Of a stretch of 64,000 nucleotides of DNA, positions 35,939-45,355 are shown piece by piece. The translations under genes and the position numbers were made by a program. The stretch's first letter is position 1. The number at the start of each line of letters is the position of its first letter. Origin of the DNA: an uncultured Kiloniellaceae bacterium (GTDB taxonomy: Bacteria; Pseudomonadota; Alphaproteobacteria; Kiloniellales; Kiloniellaceae); the NCBI GenBank assembly GCA_947493695.1, contig CANLSF010000001.1, positions 1,364,001 to 1,428,000 on the forward strand. Direction: 5' to 3'. Below the pieces are notes generated by a model, which saw only the letters and a program-made list of their open reading frames with translations, was not told the DNA's origin and did not search any database.

Positions 35939-36514
35939 TTATCGCCATGTCGGTCTTCGGCTTAGTTGATAGTCAATTCCAGTCATTCTGACACGCCAGT
36001 GGAGCATCTCACGACTAACGCTGTATAGATCCTGAGCTCTCTGATCACTCAGCTTCTGATGTCGAATTGACATCAAAGCTGGACGGGGCAATAAAAGAGT
36101 CCCTGCTAACCAATCTGCCTCGTCTTCTTGGTCTTGACTGAAATTGCTTGGCACGAGTGAACCGTCTTCGAGAATGCAGGCATCAGCTAATTCATGTCCC
36201 AAAGTGATATGAGATATTTCGTGCATTACTACGCTGTTTTTTCGAGCAAGTGAGGCTGCATCCTTGTAGACTACAAGATGACTAGTATTCATGCGCATTG
36301 TTAGAGCAGACCAAGAGTCATCGTTAGGGTTATTAAGGTTCTGAGTATCCTCGTTGGTAAGTCCTTTAATTTCGGATGTTGACCAAACCGTAATGTCCAT
36401 GTGATCAGCTAGTCGAAATGCGGAAAGTGGTGCTGTGGCCGCTAAGCCAAGATCCTTGCGGATTTCAGCCGATCTCCTTTCGCATTGAGATTTAAATCCA
36501 CGTCTGAACGCCAT
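35939..36514 (-). CDS. ImmA/IrrE-family zinc metallopeptidase
   Basis: 191 residues. The zinc motif HEISH with the downstream Glu in EDEADWLAGTLLLP is typical of ImmA/IrrE proteases (COG2856). These cleave a partner XRE-type repressor, as ImmA does with ImmR in ICEBs1. The start codon follows the stop of the upstream XRE gene with no gap (TAG then ATG), so the two are translationally coupled and almost surely work together. The pair can act as a mobile-element switch or a toxin-antitoxin-like module. Confidence 0.9.
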   Translation of the reverse strand: MAFRRGFKSQCERRSAEIRKDLGLAATAPLSAFRLADHMDITVWSTSEIKGLTNEDTQNLNNPNDDSWSALTMRMNTSHLVVYKDAASLARKNSVVMHEISHITLGHELADACILEDGSLVPSNFSQDQEDEADWLAGTLLLPRPALMSIRHQKLSDQRAQDLYSVSREMLHWRVRMTGIDYQLSRRPTWR

Positions 36515-36832
36515 CTAATGACCTTTTGTATCTACGTGCTGTGCAAACTGCTCCGATGCTTTTTCAATAAGCTTAGCAAGCGATTTTGCGGTCCGAGGGG
36601 AGACGGTTTTCTTATTCTTAAAAGCAATTTGCAATGTGCCTACGCCTGTAAACTGAGCCGGTTCTTCTCCTAGCCAACTACAGAGTTTTTCGAGTGTCCC
36701 CACGTCGGGAACATTTCCTTTTTCGATGCGGGTTAAAGTCGTTGGACTGATGCCAATCTCTTTAGCTGCGGCTCGAACTCCCATATTCCCGCGTTTCCTC
36801 AAGACAAGACGCGCGATGTCATCGATGTTCAT
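36515..36832 (-). CDS. XRE-family HTH regulator paired with ImmA/IrrE protease
   Basis: 105 residues. Helix-turn-helix about 15-60: GVRAAAKEIGISPTTLTRIE then GNVPDVGTLEKLCSWLG. The C-terminal part is basic and helical (SPRTAKSLAKLIEKAS). First gene of a two-gene unit with the protease; probably represses its own promoter in the 157-nt divergent region before the DUF2188 gene. Confidence 0.9.
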   Translation of the reverse strand: MNIDDIARLVLRKRGNMGVRAAAKEIGISPTTLTRIEKGNVPDVGTLEKLCSWLGEEPAQFTGVGTLQIAFKNKKTVSPRTAKSLAKLIEKASEQFAQHVDTKGH

Positions 36833-36989: not shown

Positions 36990-37217
36990 GTGCCAAAACG
37001 CAGTAATCAGCATGTTGTACCTCATTCTGATGGTTGGGCGGTTAAGCCTGCCGGTGGATCTAAAGCTTCATCGGTTCACACAACACAACAAGAAGCCATC
37101 GACCGTGCTCGCGACATTTCCAGCAATCAACGAAGTGAGCTCTTAATTCACGGGCGGGATGGGCGCATCAGAGAGCGAGATTCTCATGGCAACGATCCTT
37201 TTCCTCCAAAAGGATGA
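36990..37217 (+). CDS. DUF2188 protein
   Basis: 75 residues, GTG start with GGAGA upstream. Sequence HVVPHSDGWAVKPAGGSKAS, then TTQQEAIDRARDI, SELLIHGRDGRIRERDSHGN and PFPPKG is the DUF2188 pattern, a small domain that often lies in accessory DNA with unknown function. A terminator follows at 37256. Divergent from the XRE-ImmA/IrrE pair. Confidence 0.85.
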   Translation: MPKRSNQHVVPHSDGWAVKPAGGSKASSVHTTQQEAIDRARDISSNQRSELLIHGRDGRIRERDSHGNDPFPPKG

Positions 37218-37255
37218 CTTGCGAATCAGTTGTTCGGATCTTTCAATGCTTTTAC

Positions 37256-37287
37256 AAAGGCTTCGCCATCGCGAAGCCTTTGTTTTT
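37256..37287 (+). terminator. Rho-independent terminator after the DUF2188 gene
   Basis: Perfect 11-bp stem AAAGGCTTCGC / GCGAAGCCTTT, loop CATC, followed by GTTTTT. Confidence 0.92.
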
Positions 37288-37452
37288 GGGGAAATGTTAC
37301 ATCCTAATAGATGATCAAGTGGATCATGCTGGGCAGGGAACGGAAACACGCCTTTATCTTGAAAGGTTTTCACGAGGCGCGTTTCAAAGATCTGTATAAC
37401 TTGGCTGCTGTCGTCTCCGAAAGAAACCCAACTTTGTTTGGATTCATATTAG

Positions 37453-37653
37453 TTATTTTTTTGACGAGTAAAAACCTGACTTAACTAATTGATCGATCAA
37501 AATTTCTCTTTTCTGATTGAGTGTTTCCTGTGTTGGTTTAGAGGTGTTTTGGGAGCGAACCTCTCGTTGGGTGTTCGATAGACCTCTAGATTCGTTAGAG
37601 CTGATCGGCATTAGCAAAGGCATTTGATTTCTGTTTTGTTTTGTTTTTGCCAT
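37453..37653 (-). CDS. Small basic/polar protein downstream of the AvcD-like deaminase, unknown
   Basis: 66 residues from the ATG with a near-perfect site (GGAGG, 5-nt spacing); an ATG 12 nt earlier is possible. It follows the deaminase stop by only 26 nt on the same strand, so it belongs to its operon. The sequence is polar: Lys/Gln/Asn-rich start (MAKTKQNRNQ), Ser/Thr-rich middle, and a C-terminal helix LNQKREILIDQLVKSGF. No known domain. Candidate partner, inhibitor or sensor for the deaminase; this is inferred only from position. Confidence 0.6.
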   Translation of the reverse strand: MAKTKQNRNQMPLLMPISSNESRGLSNTQREVRSQNTSKPTQETLNQKREILIDQLVKSGFYSSKK

Positions 37654-37679
37654 TTCTGCCTCCATCCTAGTCTTTGTTT

Positions 37680-39239
37680 TTATATCGCCATGGATTCTTT
37701 TTGGTGTAGATCTGCGACTATCATTTTTTCATAAGTCGTGAAGCCGTCCATCGCTGGGCAAAATACTGGATCTGCATCTTTCTTGTTCACGGTTACTACT
37801 TTTCCGTCTTTCTTTCGGTCCACACCATGTTTAAAGAGACGAATCATATTTTTAGGCGCAACCCCTTCATATTGAAGAAATATGACCATCCTGTTCTCTT
37901 TGTTTACATACTTTTTCGAAACAGAATCTTTGTGCAAATCAGGTGCTAAGCTCTTTGCGTAAGGTTCGATGTAGTAAACCTCTGTGATGCCGCTTGCAAC
38001 AATATGCCGCGCACAGCTATGGCAAGGAAATGTTGTGCAATAAAGACGACCGCCAACCAGTCCGATCTTTCCATCCCTTGCGGCAGAAATAATAGCCTCC
38101 ATTTCGGCATGAACCGACCGGCTGTATTCGATTAAATTTTTTATTTCGGTCTTTACCAACGCATTTCGAACGACTTCAGCGTTGGTTTTTTCCGACAAAA
38201 GCCCTTCTTGGGATAGTTTATCATATACCGAGTTATATAGATTTTCTTTTCGGTCGTCGTTGTGACAAATTTTACCGCCCCACAGAAAACACCTGTGATC
38301 ATCCATGCCATCTTCTGCGCCATAGAGTCCGCCGAAAGCTTTTGGAACATCATTCCATCCGACACTGATTAACTCACCATCTTTTGAGTAAATTGCGGCG
38401 CCAACTTGTCGAGATAAACAGGCGGACTTTGAGGAGGCTGCTACGGCGTTATACATTGCGGCTTCGTGCAGCGTCGGTGTGTGGACTTTTATATTAAACA
38501 ATATCTCTAGATATCGATCTATAACTCTATCCAACTCTTCGTGATTTTGGCCATCATTTCTGATAAAAAAATCAGCTAATTGTGTCGTGTCTCTCACTTT
38601 CTGACCATAAATAGATCCTTCATTTTCGTCAGTTGAAAATATTTTACTTATTTCTGCATCATCTACTTTGTTAGATGAGAGGCGTTCTTTACGAACTTCT
38701 TCAGGGGCAAATACAGAAAATAACCAAAATACGTCGCCGTAAACATCTCTAAGAAGTTTTACTTCGTCAGGGTGTTTGACTGAGTCAATGATATGTACTT
38801 GGCGTTGGGGTAGAGCTACAAAGGGTTCTCTGTATTTGTCATATCCTTCGTCAAGGCGATCTGTCGCTATTTGTTCGATGCATTTCTCAATAATGTAATT
38901 ATTTGAAAATTTATCCCTGAGTTTATTTCCAACAATCTGCAATCTTTTAATTCGTTCGCCACCACACAGTTTGTCATCATATTTTTCATTCGCTAATTTG
39001 GCATTTTCTTTTATTTTGTCGCTGGCCTGTATCATATTCACTTTATAATTGAAGTCTTCACGTAATTTTTTCGCAAGTATCTCTGCTGTCACCGACACTC
39101 CAGACCCAACAGCGCCAACCATTGCAATAACGAGTTCAGGGCTACGTCGATCAGAAATAGATAAACGTTCGTGATCTCCAATATTTGCTTTAGTCTCAGA
39201 AGTTGTCTCAACTTGTTTGGATTTCGGTTTGACTGCCAA
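37680..39239 (-). CDS. AvcD-like anti-phage deoxycytidylate deaminase with N-terminal P-loop domain
   Basis: 519 residues in two parts. The N-terminal ~260 residues resemble a P-loop kinase fold with a degenerate Walker A, GAVGSGVS (42-49), where the Lys is Val. The C-terminal part is a zinc cytidine/dCMP deaminase domain: HAEME near residue 375 and PCHSCARH near 405 supply the His, Glu and two Cys for zinc. This two-domain layout and length match AvcD-type defence deaminases, which deplete dCTP/dCMP when phage shuts off host transcription. In Vibrio they are held in check by the AvcI RNA. The region is visibly AT-rich compared with its neighbours, a sign of transfer. Start: ATG after GAGGTAAG. 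Confidence 0.88.
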   Translation of the reverse strand: MAVKPKSKQVETTSETKANIGDHERLSISDRRSPELVIAMVGAVGSGVSVTAEILAKKLREDFNYKVNMIQASDKIKENAKLANEKYDDKLCGGERIKRLQIVGNKLRDKFSNNYIIEKCIEQIATDRLDEGYDKYREPFVALPQRQVHIIDSVKHPDEVKLLRDVYGDVFWLFSVFAPEEVRKERLSSNKVDDAEISKIFSTDENEGSIYGQKVRDTTQLADFFIRNDGQNHEELDRVIDRYLEILFNIKVHTPTLHEAAMYNAVAASSKSACLSRQVGAAIYSKDGELISVGWNDVPKAFGGLYGAEDGMDDHRCFLWGGKICHNDDRKENLYNSVYDKLSQEGLLSEKTNAEVVRNALVKTEIKNLIEYSRSVHAEMEAIISAARDGKIGLVGGRLYCTTFPCHSCARHIVASGITEVYYIEPYAKSLAPDLHKDSVSKKYVNKENRMVIFLQYEGVAPKNMIRLFKHGVDRKKDGKVVTVNKKDADPVFCPAMDGFTTYEKMIVADLHQKESMAI

Positions 39240-39311
39240 CTTCTTACCTCAAATTCTGTTACCAACAACCGGTTGATTGGCGCGCTTCAATGCAAAATAA
39301 CGCGCTATAAT

Positions 39312-39340
39312 TGTATATATGGGATTATTAGAAGAGTAAA
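39312..39340 (-). promoter_or_regulatory. Candidate promoter of the AvcD-like operon
   Basis: On the minus strand TTTACT (39340-39335) and TATACA (39317-39312) are 17 nt apart. The leader to the ATG would be about 65 nt and contains a GCGCG...CGCGC pairing and AACCGGTT. The whole 220-nt AT-rich stretch up to 39459 could hold an AvcI-type RNA; none is proven. Confidence 0.45.
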
Positions 39341-39412
39341 TGCACATAAATGCATTTAAAACGACTAAGTAGTTTTCACATTTAATGAGATTTGTACTGA
39401 AATATTTAAGCT

Positions 39413-39457
39413 GGGTCAGGTTTCAGTCTGTGCGCAGCTAGAGGTATCAGAAGCTTC
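39413..39457 (+). repeat. GGGTCAGG-type repeat, copy 1 (3' flank of tenA copy 1)
   Basis: GGGTCAGGTTTCAGTCTGTG and the bases after it resemble the sequence at 40750-40793. Both copies sit immediately past the 3' end of a tenA copy. They probably mark the same duplication or insertion border. Confidence 0.55.
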
Positions 39458-39459
39458 GG

Positions 39460-40173
39460 CTAGTATGTCGAGACTCCTTTCTCAAAAGCATCCTCAAAAA
39501 ACGCCGCCTCCAGTTCCGTCACCTTCCTAAACAACTCCACCAAACCCGCCCGCCGCGCCTCATCCAGCCCTGCGCAGGCCCGGTTCGTCTCCTCTCGCAG
39601 CCACTCCACGAAGCCCACGAACTCGTCCGTCGCATGCAGCTCGATCCATTCCCGGTATTGCGGCTGGGGCGGTTTGGCATCCGCGACCGGTTCCGCCCAG
39701 GCCTGGTAGACCCATTCGGAGCAGAGCAGGACGGTCATGGCTTCCGGGTATTGACCGCTGCCTGCGTAGCCGCTGGCGCCGCCGACGATGGCGTCTGAGA
39801 TGGCTTGCGTGACCGGGGAGGGCGGGGTGTTGCGCCAGGTGGCTTCGGGCACGCCGAGGCGTTCGAAGGACTTCAGGAAAAAGTCGTTCTCGGCGTTGGT
39901 CAGGACCGAGAGGAAGCCAGCGAGCGGGCGGCGGATGGCCATGTCGGGGGCCAGCGCGACCGCGAAGCCGACCGCCTGGGCCAGGCAATCCACGTAGTGG
40001 TAGTCCTGGATCAGATAACGGATGAAGACTTCGTCCGGCAGGGTTCCGTCCGCGAGCTGGCGGGTGAAGCGGTGGGTGGTGGCTTTGCTCCAGAAAGGCT
40101 CGGCGGAATCGCGGAGGCGGTCGGTGAAGCCGCCAGCGGCGGGCGCTTTACTTGGCGTCACTGTGTCGTTCAT
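39460..40173 (-). CDS. tenA: TenA-family thiaminase II/aminopyrimidine hydrolase-like protein, copy 1
   Basis: 237 residues from MNDTVTPSK (the frame is open upstream through a palindrome, which is not coding). TenA fold: FTRQLADGTLPDEVFIRYLI, QDYHYVDCLAQAVGFAVA, LTNAENDFFLKSFERLGV. In place of the LLPCxWxY active-site segment it has LLCSEWVY, so Cys is shifted by one and Ser sits at the usual Cys position. This points to a TenA_E-like subgroup that salvages thiamine pyrimidine precursors. It is nearly identical to the copy at 42800-43498, but its upstream thiY is truncated, so its expression is uncertain. Confidence 0.88.
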   Translation of the reverse strand: MNDTVTPSKAPAAGGFTDRLRDSAEPFWSKATTHRFTRQLADGTLPDEVFIRYLIQDYHYVDCLAQAVGFAVALAPDMAIRRPLAGFLSVLTNAENDFFLKSFERLGVPEATWRNTPPSPVTQAISDAIVGGASGYAGSGQYPEAMTVLLCSEWVYQAWAEPVADAKPPQPQYREWIELHATDEFVGFVEWLREETNRACAGLDEARRAGLVELFRKVTELEAAFFEDAFEKGVSTY

Positions 40174-40209
40174 GGTGTTGTTTTCAGTCTCGAATGAAGT
40201 CTCGGTGCC

Positions 40210-40450
40210 GGCCCGCTCCCCCTCCCGGCCACCCACATGATAATTCCGATGGGTGGCCGGGAGGGGGAGAGGGCCGGTGCCGGTTTCGGCGCAAGGCGAA
40301 ACCTAATCAAACCCGACCAAGTGGCCGGGAGGGGGAGAGGGCCGGCATCGAATCTAGATCAAACTAACAAGGGCTGGTGCCGGTTCGGCGCATGCCGAAC
40401 TTAAGCAAACTACACAGGCCGGTGCCGCAGCGGTTCAAGCCGCTCTCAAA
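40210..40450. repeat. Long palindrome and GC-rich repeat modules between thiY remnant and tenA copy 1
   Basis: Palindrome: left arm 40210-40235, loop CATGATAATTCCGA (40236-40249), right arm 40250-40275, 26-bp arms with one mismatch. After it come modules of the GGTGCCGGTTTCGGCG family with small internal hairpins (about 40266-40317, 40370-40416). The whole spacer is nearly identical in length and sequence to 43499-43775 (constant offset 3325 nt). Confidence 0.85.
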
Positions 40451-40732
40451 TTACCTACTCAGCTCAACCGCATAGCCTTCCACAGGCACCAGCTTCTCGA
40501 TCATCTTGTGCTCCTGCAGGAAGGCGGCAAACGCCTCATAGCGGCCTTTGTCCAGCGCGGCGGGGCGCAAGGCAAAACGCGGCAGGGTGTCGCGCCAGGC
40601 GCGGCGGTTCAGTTCGTCGTCCAGCTCCTTGCGGTAGCTGATGAAATCGCCCCAGGCTTCGTCCGGGTGGTTGATCATGAAGGTCACGGCCCGCTCCATG
40701 GCGCGCAGCACTTTCGGGAAGCGCGGGTCGTC
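40451..40732 (-). pseudogene. 3' fragment of thiY (NMT1/THI5-type binding protein)
   Basis: Encodes the last ~94 residues of the protein at 43776-44768, nearly identical through MERAVTFMINHPDEAWGDFI to the C-terminus VPVEGYAVELSR. Identity stops sharply at 40732/40733, with GGGTCAGG 17 nt further on. Without signal peptide or N-terminal lobe it cannot be functional. Confidence 0.88.
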
Positions 40733-40747
40733 GAGCTTTGTAGTGGA

Positions 40748-40793
40748 CGGGGTCAGGTCTTAATTTGTGCGTGACTAGAAGTATTAGATGCTC
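40748..40793 (+). repeat. GGGTCAGG-type repeat, copy 2 (border of thiY remnant and tenA pseudogene)
   Basis: GGGGTCAGGTCTTAATTTGTG begins just past the point where the thiY copy is cut and leads into the 3' end of the second tenA. A shorter related start, AGGGTCAGGCCATAAATCC, cuts the 5' end of that tenA at about 41355. Confidence 0.55.
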
Positions 40794-40810
40794 AATTTTG
40801 CCCGTTTAAG

Positions 40811-41352
40811 CTACTCACAAACCCTAAAAGCATCCTCAAAAAATGCCGTTTCCAGTTCTGTCACCTTCCTAAACAACTCCACCAAACCTGCCTGTCGCTC
40901 CTCATCCAATCCCTCACAAGCCCGGTCGGTCTCTTCCCGCAGCCATTCCACAAAACCCACAAACTCCGCCGTCGCGTGCAGCTCGATCCATTCCCTGTAT
41001 TGTGGTTGGGGCGGCTGGGCATCCGCGACCGGATCCGCCCAGGCCTGGTAGACCCATTCGGAGCAGAGCAGGACGGTCATGGCTTCCGGGTATTGGCCGC
41101 TGCCCGCATAACCGCTTGCGCCGCCGACGATGGCGTCTGAGATGGCTTGCGTGACCGGTGAGGGCGGGGTGTTGCGCCAGGTGGCTTCGGGGACGCCGAG
41201 GCGCTCGAAGGATTTCAGGAAAAAATCGTTCTCGGCGTTGGTCAGGACCGAGAGGAAACCGGCCAGCGGGCGGCGGGTGGCCATGTCGGGGGCCGAGGGC
41301 GACCGCGAAACCGACCGCCTGGGCCAGACAGTCGACGGAGTGGTAGTCCTGC
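40811..41352 (-). pseudogene. tenA copy 2, 5'-truncated and frameshifted
   Basis: Homologous to the other tenA copies from QDYHSVDCLAQAVGFAVAL to the C-terminus FFEDAF, but the first ~55 codons are missing (cut at about 41352 beside GGGTCAGG). One extra base in the VALAPDMA-coding segment (about 41292-41297) shifts the frame. The longest remaining frame starts at the Met of MATRRPLAGF (41284). More diverged from copies 1 and 3 than they are from each other. Confidence 0.85.
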
Positions 41353-41584
41353 ATGAATAGGGTCAGGCCATAAATCCTGCATTTTGCATAAATCACCCAC
41401 GTACAATCAGCCTTTGGCGCCCATCACGCTTCACCGGATTAGCTCTGGCTTTTGAGAGACTTGTGGTCCTGCCAATGGCCTCCCGAGGCGCCGTTTGTCA
41501 TCCAGTAAACAGATGCCACGGTAACAACATTTGTTGTGAATGTGGGTTTGATGCGTTAGGCTACGTGATCGGAAGGAAATTGCT

Positions 41585-41851
41585 ATGCCCCGTCTTTCAA
41601 TCGATCTCAGCGCGCAGGAACATCAGCAGCTCAAGGCTATGGCCGCGCTCAAGGGACAGAGCATCAAGGCGTATGTGTTGTCCCGCGCCTTGGTCAATAT
41701 GCCCGATCCTGCCAACATGAGCGACCGGGAAGCCCTGCAAGCTCTGAAACAGCTTTTGGCCCCGCGTATCGCGGAAGCCGAGACCGGCGATGTCGTGCGG
41801 GCAACGGCTAACGATATTAAGCGCGAAGCCCGCAAACGGCTGAAACGATAG
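41585..41851 (+). CDS. ParD-like ribbon-helix-helix antitoxin
   Basis: 88 residues. The N-terminus PRLSIDLSAQEHQQLKAMAA then QSIKAYVLSRAL is a ribbon-helix-helix DNA-binding unit. The C-terminal part (ATANDIKREARKRLKR) would wrap the toxin. One nt separates it from the ParE-like gene. The pair sits between the tenA pseudogene and the intact thiY-tenA operon, so it may have arrived with the array. Confidence 0.85.
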   Translation: MPRLSIDLSAQEHQQLKAMAALKGQSIKAYVLSRALVNMPDPANMSDREALQALKQLLAPRIAEAETGDVVRATANDIKREARKRLKR

Positions 41852-41852
41852 G

Positions 41853-42152
41853 ATGGCGACCTATGCGCTTACGCACTCGGCGCAGGAAGACTTGATCGGT
41901 ATCTGGCTTTATACACGTGAAACCTGGGGTGAGCAGCAGGCGGACCGTTATCAGGATGATCTGCGTGAATGTTTCGAGCGGCTCGCGTCCGGGATGGGGC
42001 ACAGCAAATCTCTCCCTGAAATGGACGGCGTGAAGTCGCACCTTTGCCGCCATCACTATGTTTTCTTTCTCGAGCGTCCGGGGGACATCGCGATCCTGGC
42101 CGTGATCCATGAACGCATGGATCTGATGGAACGTTTGCGCGAACGCCTTTAG
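41853..42152 (+). CDS. ParE/RelE-superfamily toxin
   Basis: 99 residues: YALTHSAQEDLIGIWLYTRE, ADRYQDDLRECFERLASG, HYVFFLERPGDIAILAVIHERMD and a C-terminal RLRERL. This is the ParE form of the RelE fold, whose members usually poison DNA gyrase. Starts 1 nt after the antitoxin stop, the standard coupling of type II modules. Confidence 0.9.
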   Translation: MATYALTHSAQEDLIGIWLYTRETWGEQQADRYQDDLRECFERLASGMGHSKSLPEMDGVKSHLCRHHYVFFLERPGDIAILAVIHERMDLMERLRERL

Positions 42153-42266
42153 CTCTTCCGGCTTCGACGCACCTAAATTAAATGTAACCGGATTTGGCCA
42201 GCTCTCGGTGCTACAGCTGAAGTGGGTTGACGTCCGACGTTCCGTACTCCCAAGTCGGCGTAACCT

Positions 42267-42695
42267 CTATTGCCCCTGCAGGGGCCAAGGCTCGCCACCG
42301 CGGTAGAGTTTGCAGTGCCATTCTGTGGCGAGAACGAAGAGCTGATCTCTATCTAGGCCCTGAAATTCGACGCCCTTGTAAACCACTCTACCAGCGCCTG
42401 TTACCAGCGTTCCTCCCAAGAGTTGGATGCTGCCCTGGCGGATTATGCTATCTGGAATGAAAGAATAGGCGTGATCGAAAGCAAAGACACGGTCTGGTGA
42501 CTCATTCACGTTGGGCGAGGTCAGGATGCGAGGAGTTGCGGTTTCGGCGTAGCAGGAGAGCTGATAATTTGCTCTCTCTTCCTCAGGAACCGGTTCTGCC
42601 GGTAGAATACTCTGCGCCAATCCTGGTTCCGCAAGCTCTGTGGCGCACAGCAAAAGTGACGCGACAGTGAGCGTTTGGATGAAACGTTTTGCCAT
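42267..42695 (-). CDS. Small exported protein of unknown function
   Basis: 142 residues with a signal peptide (about 1-27, ending GLAQS). Mature part has two Cys (SCYAE and WHCKLY) that may pair, and beta-strand-like segments such as GAGRVVYKGVEFQGL. No family recognised. It lies between parE and tenA copy 3, both within the repeat-rich array. Confidence 0.6.
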   Translation of the reverse strand: MAKRFIQTLTVASLLLCATELAEPGLAQSILPAEPVPEEERANYQLSCYAETATPRILTSPNVNESPDRVFAFDHAYSFIPDSIIRQGSIQLLGGTLVTGAGRVVYKGVEFQGLDRDQLFVLATEWHCKLYRGGEPWPLQGQ

Positions 42696-42799
42696 GCGCT
42701 TTTGCCTCGACGGGTTCAGTTGATCAGGTAATCAAGAGAGAATGCAGTCTAGCCGATTAATGGGCGACAGCCGCTTATTTGATTTCTACGGCTCTTGCC

Positions 42800-43498
42800 C
42801 TAACCCCCAAAAGCATCCTCAAAGAACGCCGCCTCCAGTTCCGTCACCTTCTTAAAGAGCGCAACCAACCCCGCCTGCCGCTCCGCATCCAACCCTGCGC
42901 AAGCCCGGTCGGTCTCGTCCCGCAGCCATTCCACGAAGCCCACGAATTCTTCCGTCGCATGCAGTTCGATCCACTCCCGGTATTGCGGCTGGGGCGGCTT
43001 CGCGTCGGCGACCGGTTCCGCCCAGGCCTGATAGACCCATTCGGAGCAGAGCAGGACGGTCATGGCTTCCGGGTATTGACCTGAACCCGCGTAGCCGCTG
43101 GCGCCGCCGACGATGGCTTCGGAGATAGCTTGCGTGACCGGTGAGGGTGGGGTGTTGCGCCAAGTGGTTTCGGGGACGCCGAGGCGCTCGAAGGACTTCA
43201 GGAAAAAATCGTTCTCGGCGTTGGTCAGGACCGAGAGGAAACCCGCCAACGGACGGCGGGTGGCCATGTCGGGGGCAAGTGCCACCGCGAAGCCGACCGC
43301 CTGAGCCAGGCAATCCACGTAGTGGTAGTCCTGGATCAGGTAGCGGATGAAGACCTCGTCCGGCAGGGTTCCGTCCGCGAGCTGGCGGGTGAAGCGGTGG
43401 GTGGTGGCTTCGCTCCAGAAGGGCTGTGATTCGTCGCGGAGGCGGTCGGTGAAGCCGCCAGCGGCGGGCGCTTTATTTGGCGTCACTGTGTCGTTCAT
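42800..43498 (-). CDS. tenA: TenA-family thiaminase II/aminopyrimidine hydrolase-like protein, copy 3 (in intact operon)
   Basis: 232 residues from MNDTVTPNKAPAAGG. Same motifs as copy 1, including LLCSEWVY. Downstream partner of the intact thiY gene, 277 nt away across a palindrome-rich spacer. With the TPP riboswitch ahead of thiY, the operon should be switched off when thiamine pyrophosphate is plentiful. Its role would be recycling degraded thiamine pyrimidine (aminopyrimidine hydrolysis to HMP), with the binding protein importing the precursor. Confidence 0.9.
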   Translation of the reverse strand: MNDTVTPNKAPAAGGFTDRLRDESQPFWSEATTHRFTRQLADGTLPDEVFIRYLIQDYHYVDCLAQAVGFAVALAPDMATRRPLAGFLSVLTNAENDFFLKSFERLGVPETTWRNTPPSPVTQAISEAIVGGASGYAGSGQYPEAMTVLLCSEWVYQAWAEPVADAKPPQPQYREWIELHATEEFVGFVEWLRDETDRACAGLDAERQAGLVALFKKVTELEAAFFEDAFGG

Positions 43499-43534
43499 GG
43501 TGCTGTTCTCAGTCTCGAATGAAGTCTCGGTGCC

Positions 43535-43775
43535 GGCCCGCTCCCCCTCCCGGCCACCCACATGATAATTCCGATGGGTGGCCGGGAGGGGGAGCGGGCC
43601 GGTGCCGGTTTCGGCGCAAGGCGAAACCTAATCAAACCCGACCAAGTGGCCGGGTGGGGGAGAGGGCCGGCATCGAATCTAGATCAAACTAACAAGGGCT
43701 GGTGCCGGTTCGGCGCATGCCGAACTTAAGCAAACTACACAGGCCGGTGCCGCAGCGGTTCAAGCCGCTCTCAAA
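43535..43775. repeat. Long palindrome and GC-rich repeat modules between thiY and tenA copy 3
   Basis: Arms 43535-43560 and 43575-43600 (26 bp, perfect) around loop CATGATAATTCCGA. It is the same spacer as 40174-40450. In RNA it would form a very stable hairpin inside the thiY-tenA transcript and may limit tenA expression or protect mRNA ends. Confidence 0.88.
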
Positions 43776-44768: not shown

Positions 44769-44905
44769 GGCGGACCTCCTTAATCCGATATTCGTCTCGC
44801 CTGCGAGACTCAGATGATCAGCGCCTTTCCACGCGAAAAGGCACCAGGAGATCCGGGAGTGAGTAGCGGAGGGTCTTTGCGGAGAGCCCTCGTAAAGTGA
44901 GGACC

Positions 44906-45010
44906 GGTTTCCTTCCCTGCGCCGGCATTACCCGGATCAGGTTCGAAGGGTCACTGGACGGTCGAAAAACCCCGCTCAGTATCTCAGCCCGTAAAGGCCC
45001 CCCTAGGAAC
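44906..45010 (-). promoter_or_regulatory. TPP (thi-box) riboswitch ahead of thiY-tenA
   Basis: On the minus strand: GGGCTGAGAT in the pyrimidine-sensing arm, then ACCCTTCGAACCTGATCCGG and GTAATGCCGGCGCAGGGA, the invariant thi-box core. P1 is formed by GTTCCT with AGGAAAC. About 138 nt separate it from the thiY start. A hairpin GTCTCGC-AG-GCGAGAC (44794-44809) just upstream of the thiY RBS may belong to the expression platform. Confidence 0.96.
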
Positions 45011-45106
45011 GCCTGCGATCATCAGCCGCGGAAGGCCCTGCGTCAAGCTTACGCTTTTTATCCGAGTTCGGTGCCGGCCTCGTTAGTTTGATCCAGCTTC
45101 GGTGCC

Positions 45107-45172
45107 GGCCCGCTCCCCCTCCCGGCCACCCACATGATAATTCCGATGGGTGGCCGGGAGGGGGAGCGGGCT
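45107..45172. repeat. Long palindrome, copy 3, upstream of the riboswitch
   Basis: Arms 45107-45132 and 45147-45172 (26 bp, one mismatch) around the same loop CATGATAATTCCGA as in the two thiY-tenA spacers. Confidence 0.88.
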
Positions 45173-45355
45173 GGTGCCGGTTTCGGCGCTAGTCGAAACT
45201 TAGTCAAACTATACGGAGCGGGCTGGTGCCGGTTTCGGCGTAAGCTGAAACTTAATCAAACTATATGGAGAGGGCCGGTGCCGGTTTCGGCGTAAGCCGA
45301 AACTAAATCAAACTATACGGAGTGGGCTTGTGCCGGTTCGACGTCAGTCGATCAC
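45163..45355. repeat. 52-bp tandem repeats (three units plus a degenerate fourth)
   Basis: Units at 45163-45214, 45215-45266, 45267-45318 (exactly 52 bp each) and a decayed one from 45319. Each starts GGAG(C/A)GGGC, contains GGTGCCGGTTTCGGCG with a small hairpin TTTCGGCG..CGAAA, and ends in AATCAAACTATA or a close variant. Related single modules lie in both thiY-tenA spacers. No unique spacers between units, so it is not a CRISPR. Confidence 0.88.

Follow-up and report, generated by a model that had tools for sequence, protein, structure and literature searches.

The gene of an AvcD-type anti-phage deaminase in an uncultured Kiloniellaceae bacterium is followed by a small protein gene of a conserved, unannotated partner family, whose members carry near the N-terminus a peptide that, by its sequence, has the form of sliding-clamp docking peptides. 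The deaminase type is already known; the small partner with its clamp-type motif is the new part. The window, by which we mean the whole 64,000-nucleotide stretch that was analysed, contains the following features in and around the operon.

37680-39239, minus strand: anti-phage dCTP deaminase of the AvcD type, 519 aa, identified from family scores, with a TTG start and GAGG upstream.
37453-37653, minus strand: small basic partner protein of an unnamed family, 66 aa, pI 10.4, with an ATG start and a GGAGG ribosome site.
37609-37626, minus strand: candidate sliding-clamp docking motif Q-M-P-L-L-M, residues 10-15 of the small protein, called from the invariance of Q10 and motif enrichment.
37456-37509, minus strand: C-terminal stretch REILIDQLVKSGFYSSKK, residues 49-66 of the small protein, a presumed helix, marked by R49 and the consensus RxxAxxRLxxSGI.
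39240-39459, minus strand: AT-rich operon leader (GC 0.37).
36990-37217, convergent with the deaminase operon: DUF2188 gene (PADLOC candidate model PDC-S16, E 2e-39).
36515-36832, minus strand: HTH gene.
35939-36514, minus strand: ImmA/IrrE-type gene.
39460-40236, 40811-41284 (a fragment) and 42800-43561: three tenA copies, with other genes between them.
41585-42152, plus strand: ParDE toxin-antitoxin pair between the tenA copies.
44897-45014, minus strand: TPP riboswitch.

A first-pass annotation had read the operon as one of an AvcD-type deaminase, and the family searches bear this out. The 519-aa protein scores 475.2 bits against NF041025 (curated cutoff 400, E 1.9e-142) and matches the PADLOC dCTPase model PDLC02373 at E 1.5e-163. 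It consists of two domains, a degenerate P-loop domain and a dCMP/dCTP deaminase domain with the HAE and PCxxC zinc-site residues. The four zinc-site residues H377, E379, C406 and C409 show no variation among the 33 members of an alignment that we picked ourselves and that includes the window protein. Judged by family score and zinc-site residues, the protein is an anti-phage dCTP deaminase of the AvcD type. The P-loop sequence GAVGSGVS, with Val for Lys, is present as annotated, but it is no peculiarity: the Lys position (V48 in the window) holds V, C, I, A or L in all 33 members and Lys in none, so a degenerate P-loop is characteristic of the family. Among 385 genomes drawn from the class, 15 carry the deaminase, the window's genome included (E<=1e-40), and a search of 60 further genomes of the order returned none at E<=1e-30. 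The family score places it with AvcD of the AvcID systems (NF041025, PADLOC dCTPase), and it has its two domains, zinc-site residues and degenerate P-loop in common with the aligned relatives. AvcID is described with an RNA antitoxin; the constant companion here is a downstream small protein gene, and no conserved RNA was seen.

The small ORF starts 26 nt past the deaminase stop and is preceded by GGAGG at 5-nt spacing; these features and its length of 66 aa, all claimed in the first pass, were confirmed in the sequence. The proposed pairing with deaminase homologues proved to be conserved. An alignment-based scan of genome contigs gave 427 deaminase relatives, and among the best 80 of the 427, which were the ones examined, a small basic ORF sits at the stop codon of the deaminase in 77 (57 recognized by HMM and 20 by eye, the latter assigned from position and motif alone); the 80 loci include near-copies such as L055/L056 and L062/L063. 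The three others are a locus with the partner upstream of the deaminase (L088, by HMM), one whose contig ends too early (L077) and one with no partner (L075). The corresponding scan of viral contigs gave 40 deaminase relatives, which only alignment could find, as a single-protein pattern search of the viral contigs with the deaminase returned no relative. The viral loci L115, L119, L123 and L128, with less than 100 nt upstream, and L139, with no sequence downstream, are not assessable for a partner on those sides. Deaminase-partner pairs are seen in several phyla. A record titled Mycobacterium sp. KBS0706 (L048) holds a pair of the alphaproteobacterial type, which suggests either a mislabelled record or a long-distance transfer.

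A first partner HMM was built from 20 hand-chosen seeds. The window is itself a seed, and its small ORF matches the model at E 3.1e-17. The model was run against 19,888 reading frames from 145 loci (genome, viral, class-genome and plasmid). At E<=0.01 it matched an ORF just downstream of the deaminase in 34 of the 122 held-out loci, which share descent with the seeds and are not independent of them. It also matched two loci, L033 and L069, in which the deaminase gene has a frameshift that brings the partner into its reading frame, and no other frame among the 19,888. We rejected L033 and L069 as deaminase-partner fusions, since the C-terminal part of the deaminase appears to be out of frame in both. 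The remaining 86 held-out loci, which gave no match to this first model, hold divergent members or other partner types, or are partnerless. Iteration of the HMM extended the family to 68 loci, which form 63 clusters at 70% identity. When the partner profile was run against the 385 class genomes, strong matches (E<=4.6e-10) appeared in three, each beside a deaminase of the window clade; the remaining 12 of the 15 deaminase-bearing class genomes gave no strong match. Eight weaker genome matches (E 3.7e-4 to 9e-3) were taken as chance; at the one whose surroundings were inspected (L157) there is no deaminase nearby.

The small ORF evolves as a protein. In all 15 partner pairs compared (50-99% identity, at least 40 codons) pN/pS lies between 0.05 and 0.55, so the ORF is conserved at the protein level. 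A ribosome-site motif precedes 45 of the 68 partners versus 277 of 2101 control ORFs. In 37 of 66 loci (L033 and L069 left out) the partner start does not lie beyond the deaminase stop, and there the gene overlap also constrains part of the small ORF. The idea of a chance reading frame would agree with the database searches: the family has no match above cutoff in Pfam, NCBIfam, PHROGs or PDB, the window ORF has none in PADLOC, the small protein has no match in phages, and the plasmid search returned only two places, both inside nifA at a chance-level E of 0.4. It is contradicted by the hold-out HMM and by the position and selection tests, all of which place the ORF far above chance. The small ORF is real, and we regard a chance frame as vanishingly improbable and in practice refuted.

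The partners are small, basic proteins with a median length of 66 aa, and Met1 and Gln10 are the sole invariant residues among the 30 that were aligned. R49 is nearly invariant (at least 90%) in the same alignment and opens the C-terminal consensus RxxAxxRLxxSGI. We take this C-terminal stretch to be a helix and the end that probably binds the deaminase, and the small protein is likely to be mostly disordered. The nearest known family is Fur_reg_FbpA (PF13076), which resembles residues 48-64 in one of 30 members; the likeness is weak and differs from a family match in scoring 16.3 bits, below the gathering cutoff of 22.

The invariant Gln opens a Q-[LM]-x-[LF]-x-[LF] peptide at residues 6-14, in an N-terminus that is otherwise divergent. 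Of the 63 clusters, 50 match the expression Q[LMIF]x[LMFI]x[LFMI], compared with a mean of 1.4 and a maximum of 5 in 500 shuffles, and 23 match the stricter QLxLx[LF] (shuffle mean 0.23). Five of the 13 clusters outside the regular expression are Q[PRK]EF variants, and L079, L081 and L082, whose partners were assigned by eye or served as seeds, are without the Gln. None of the 63 small-partner clusters has the exact consensus pentapeptide QL[SD]LF; what they match is the less strict hexapeptide. Among control ORFs of 45-100 aa from elsewhere in the loci, only 10 of 4619 have the motif within their first 20 residues. The association also holds when no HMM is used: close to the deaminase stop, an ORF with the motif begins in 58 of 79 genome loci versus 27 of 2778 random anchors, in 8 of 38 viral loci versus 8 of 1268, and in 4 of 15 loci of the window and class genomes versus 3 of 426.

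The version in the window, QMPLLM, fits the clamp-peptide forms QxxL[LF] or QLxLxL/F, and the partners of L041 and L073 have the Hda hexapeptide QLSLPL itself. QLSLPL is described as docking Hda, and QFKLPL as docking Caulobacter HdaA, to the sliding clamp (PMC3836487). The consensus of such peptides is given as QL[S/D]LF or QxxLF, and a KD of 280 nM is reported for the binding of QLSLPL to E. coli DnaN (PMC12309361). In sequence, the partner has the N-terminal hexapeptide Q-L-x-L-x-L/F in common with Hda, HdaA and other clamp clients; unlike them, the partner has no AAA+ or enzyme domain and is tied to a defence deaminase. We infer that the peptide may bind DnaN, and such a docking-like tag suggests a coupling of the defence to DNA replication.

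Other deaminase clades have other partners. In a sister clade the downstream partner is a protein of about 170-230 aa, which overlaps the deaminase stop by 4-8 nt in several loci. It has 11 members beside a deaminase or a deaminase fragment (L006, L009, L010, L012, L016, L024, L025, L173-L175 and L179), and the three members scanned have no Pfam match. We take this partner to be DUF488-like; its profile weakly reaches three DUF488-looking proteins (E 6e-7 to 4.5e-6). Nine of the 11 have, by eye, a clamp-type peptide: QLSLF (L024), QLDLF (L016), QLSLPF (L174), QLSFNL (L025), QLSFPY (L009), QLALPY (L006), QYALSL (L173), QPLLF (L179) and QPLLLP (L175). No such peptide could be called by eye in L010 and L012. 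Another clade has a different downstream ORF, 56-91 aa long and marked by a tryptophan motif, WPxW or similar (L008, L011, L013, L014, L132-L136 and L138), in which no clamp-type peptide was seen by eye and, for the three members scanned, no Pfam match. As sister clades have the WPxW ORF or no partner that we found, the clamp motif is not required by all such deaminases. Partner type follows the deaminase tree: it needs 14 changes versus a shuffled mean of 44.0, on a tree of 135 rows made by a quick search with SH-aLRT as its only support measure and with partner labels assigned partly by eye.

The reading that we favour, to which we give not quite an even chance, is that the two genes form an anti-phage module in which a clamp-docked partner regulates the deaminase and restrains it until replication is disturbed. 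The deaminase would drain dCTP/dCMP during infection. The N-terminal Q-[LM]-x-[LF]-x-[LF] peptide of the partner would dock on the host sliding clamp (DnaN), and the conserved C-terminal end would bind the deaminase, so that its activity would be kept in check at the replisome or cued by the replisome state. In a normally replicating cell the partner would sit on the clamp with the deaminase off; a phage that halts or takes over host replication would release the deaminase. In this scheme the partner presumably restrains rather than activates the enzyme. The pairing, the coding signals, the motif enrichment, the peptides of the 170-aa partners and the agreement of partner type with the deaminase tree speak for this reading. 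Against it stand the clusters outside the motif and the missing exact pentapeptide, the upstream relatives that have no such motif, the sister clades that do without it, the 12 class genomes with a deaminase but no strong partner match, and the RNA nature of the AvcD regulator described in the literature (PMC10511110).

The same anatomy would also serve an activator or delivery factor that takes the deaminase to replication forks, where dCTP would be drained at the place of phage DNA synthesis, and clamp-binding peptides are described as recruiting many replication and repair proteins (PMC12309361). We consider this improbable, on the argument that a diffusible nucleotide-pool enzyme would gain little from local delivery. 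A dedicated inhibitor or chaperone that never touches the clamp is unlikely but deserves more weight; its QLSLxF stretch would be a beta-strand added to the deaminase. Strict operon pairing and reading-frame overlap suit a stoichiometric partner of this kind, and the hydrophobic alternation suits strand addition. It accounts less well for the clamp pattern, a Gln followed by LxLxF, that stands at residues 6-14 while the rest of the N-terminus diverges, and for the different 170-aa partners that have QLSLF, QLDLF and QLSLPF.

The system might also be a classical type III AvcID, in which the antitoxin is an RNA from the leader or the small-ORF region and the small protein is secondary. AvcI is indeed reported as a noncoding RNA that inhibits AvcD (PMC10511110, PMC12409362). 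The protein-level conservation of the small ORF argues against this reading, as does the leader. The first-pass annotation had described the leader as AT-rich with a candidate promoter and hairpins. Its AT-richness stands; the promoter and the hairpins are weak, as a sigma-70-type scan of 37200-39600 placed no site in the leader (four in all, compared with 4.7 expected from shuffles) and the fold is weak (z = -2.0). A functional RNA in the leader is likewise not supported: when the 220 nt are compared with the leaders of 12 relatives, blastn gives nothing better than E 0.18, and there is no Rfam match at E<=1. The Rfam search, which has no AvcI model for comparison, was also empty upstream of the deaminase in L026, L022, L027, L020 and L116. 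We consider the RNA antitoxin for this operon still more improbable than the delivery factor.

The favoured reading, a clamp-docked regulator, has parallels in other small bacterial modules that touch DnaN. SocB of Caulobacter belongs to such a module, in which it is the toxin that acts on the clamp. RipA of RipAB (Rosmer) is described as a similar case, in which the toxin acts on the clamp (PMC12795458); in the present operon, where the contact with DnaN is putative, it is the partner of a nucleotide-depleting enzyme that would dock. How AvcD-type deaminases sense infection and are silenced is known for few systems only, and the present answer, drawn from those few, is an RNA antitoxin lost on transcription shut-off (PMC12409362). 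A conserved, unannotated partner with a clamp-docking-type peptide offers a concrete second answer that is testable by a handful of point mutations. Among the titles and abstracts listed in searches of the open-licence literature on dCTP deaminases and AvcID, none reports this partner. Because the searched protein-family libraries miss it, the partner would complete the annotation of many loci among the 427 relatives.

Several viral contigs and the gammaproteobacterial plasmids of L019-L022, L026 and L027 have an ORF of 56-78 aa immediately ahead of the deaminase gene. These upstream ORFs were searched with an HMM built from 13 Trp-ending downstream partners and no upstream member. It finds those of the viral contigs L116 and L118 at E 1.1e-5 and L120 at 9.7e-5, and that of an Acidobacteriia MAG (L088) at 2.4e-5. 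Those of a Klebsiella plasmid (L020) and an E. coli plasmid (L021) follow at 0.015 and 0.026, and L140, L126 and L019 at 0.2-1.1. The upstream ORFs of L022, L027 and L026 were not found, and those of L022 and L027 fall short of E<5 with the downstream-partner HMM. Between profiles, the upstream ORFs match the Trp-ending downstream partners in 19 columns at the C-terminal end with a probability of 94%; the score is 37.7, and none of 30 column shuffles exceeds 10.6. The Trp-ending partners in turn match the window-type downstream partners with 96%. As the direct match of upstream and window-type profiles reaches only 13.8%, the link between them runs through the Trp-ending partners. Homology with the downstream partners is not supported for the upstream ORFs of ETEC p58 (L026) and its relatives (hhalign probability 13.6%). 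Four chosen upstream pairs have pN/pS values of 0.49, 0.51, 0.79 and 0.60, and the upstream relatives are without the clamp-type motif. In the deaminase tree the upstream-partner group lies inside the downstream-partner group.

By profile similarity, a clade of E. coli and Klebsiella plasmid copies thus has ORFs related to the partner directly upstream, in the place described for AvcI. The founding AvcID papers are reportedly those of Hsueh and of Tal (2022). AvcI is described as a noncoding RNA encoded upstream of or adjacent to avcD (PMC10511110, PMC9455884, PMC12409362) that binds and inhibits AvcD in the Vibrio and E. coli systems (PMC10511110, PMC12409362). The main text of PMC10511110 does not contain the words ORF, open reading frame or small protein. 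A wider proposal would make the ancestral regulator a small clamp-docking protein whose gene follows the deaminase in most lineages but precedes it in the enterobacterial/vibrio clade, where the AvcI region would overlap or abut it. The AvcD-type deaminases of this large clade would then in general be protein-partnered, replication-coupled defence switches. We think this rather unlikely; if true, the region studied as AvcI overlaps or abuts the partner gene, and the RNA-only (type III) reading of AvcID needs revision.

The deaminase operon forms the end of the tenA-duplicated stretch (39460-43561), downstream of the TPP riboswitch. GC is 0.36-0.46 across 36.0-39.5 kb versus 0.52-0.67 in the flanks within 33-46 kb. 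The distance from flank to flank is 8.0 kb in the window, 2.1 kb in one congener (G038) and 4.9 kb in another (G037); for a third (G036) no left-flank match near the right flank is among the matches listed. The operon is probably a lineage-specific insert beside the DUF2188, HTH and ImmA/IrrE-type genes. A repeat of about 70-130 nt with inverted halves lies at 40202-40331, 43527-43656 and 45099-45338. It has matches at many sites in the window's genome and its three congeners, and looks like a REP-type interspersed element.
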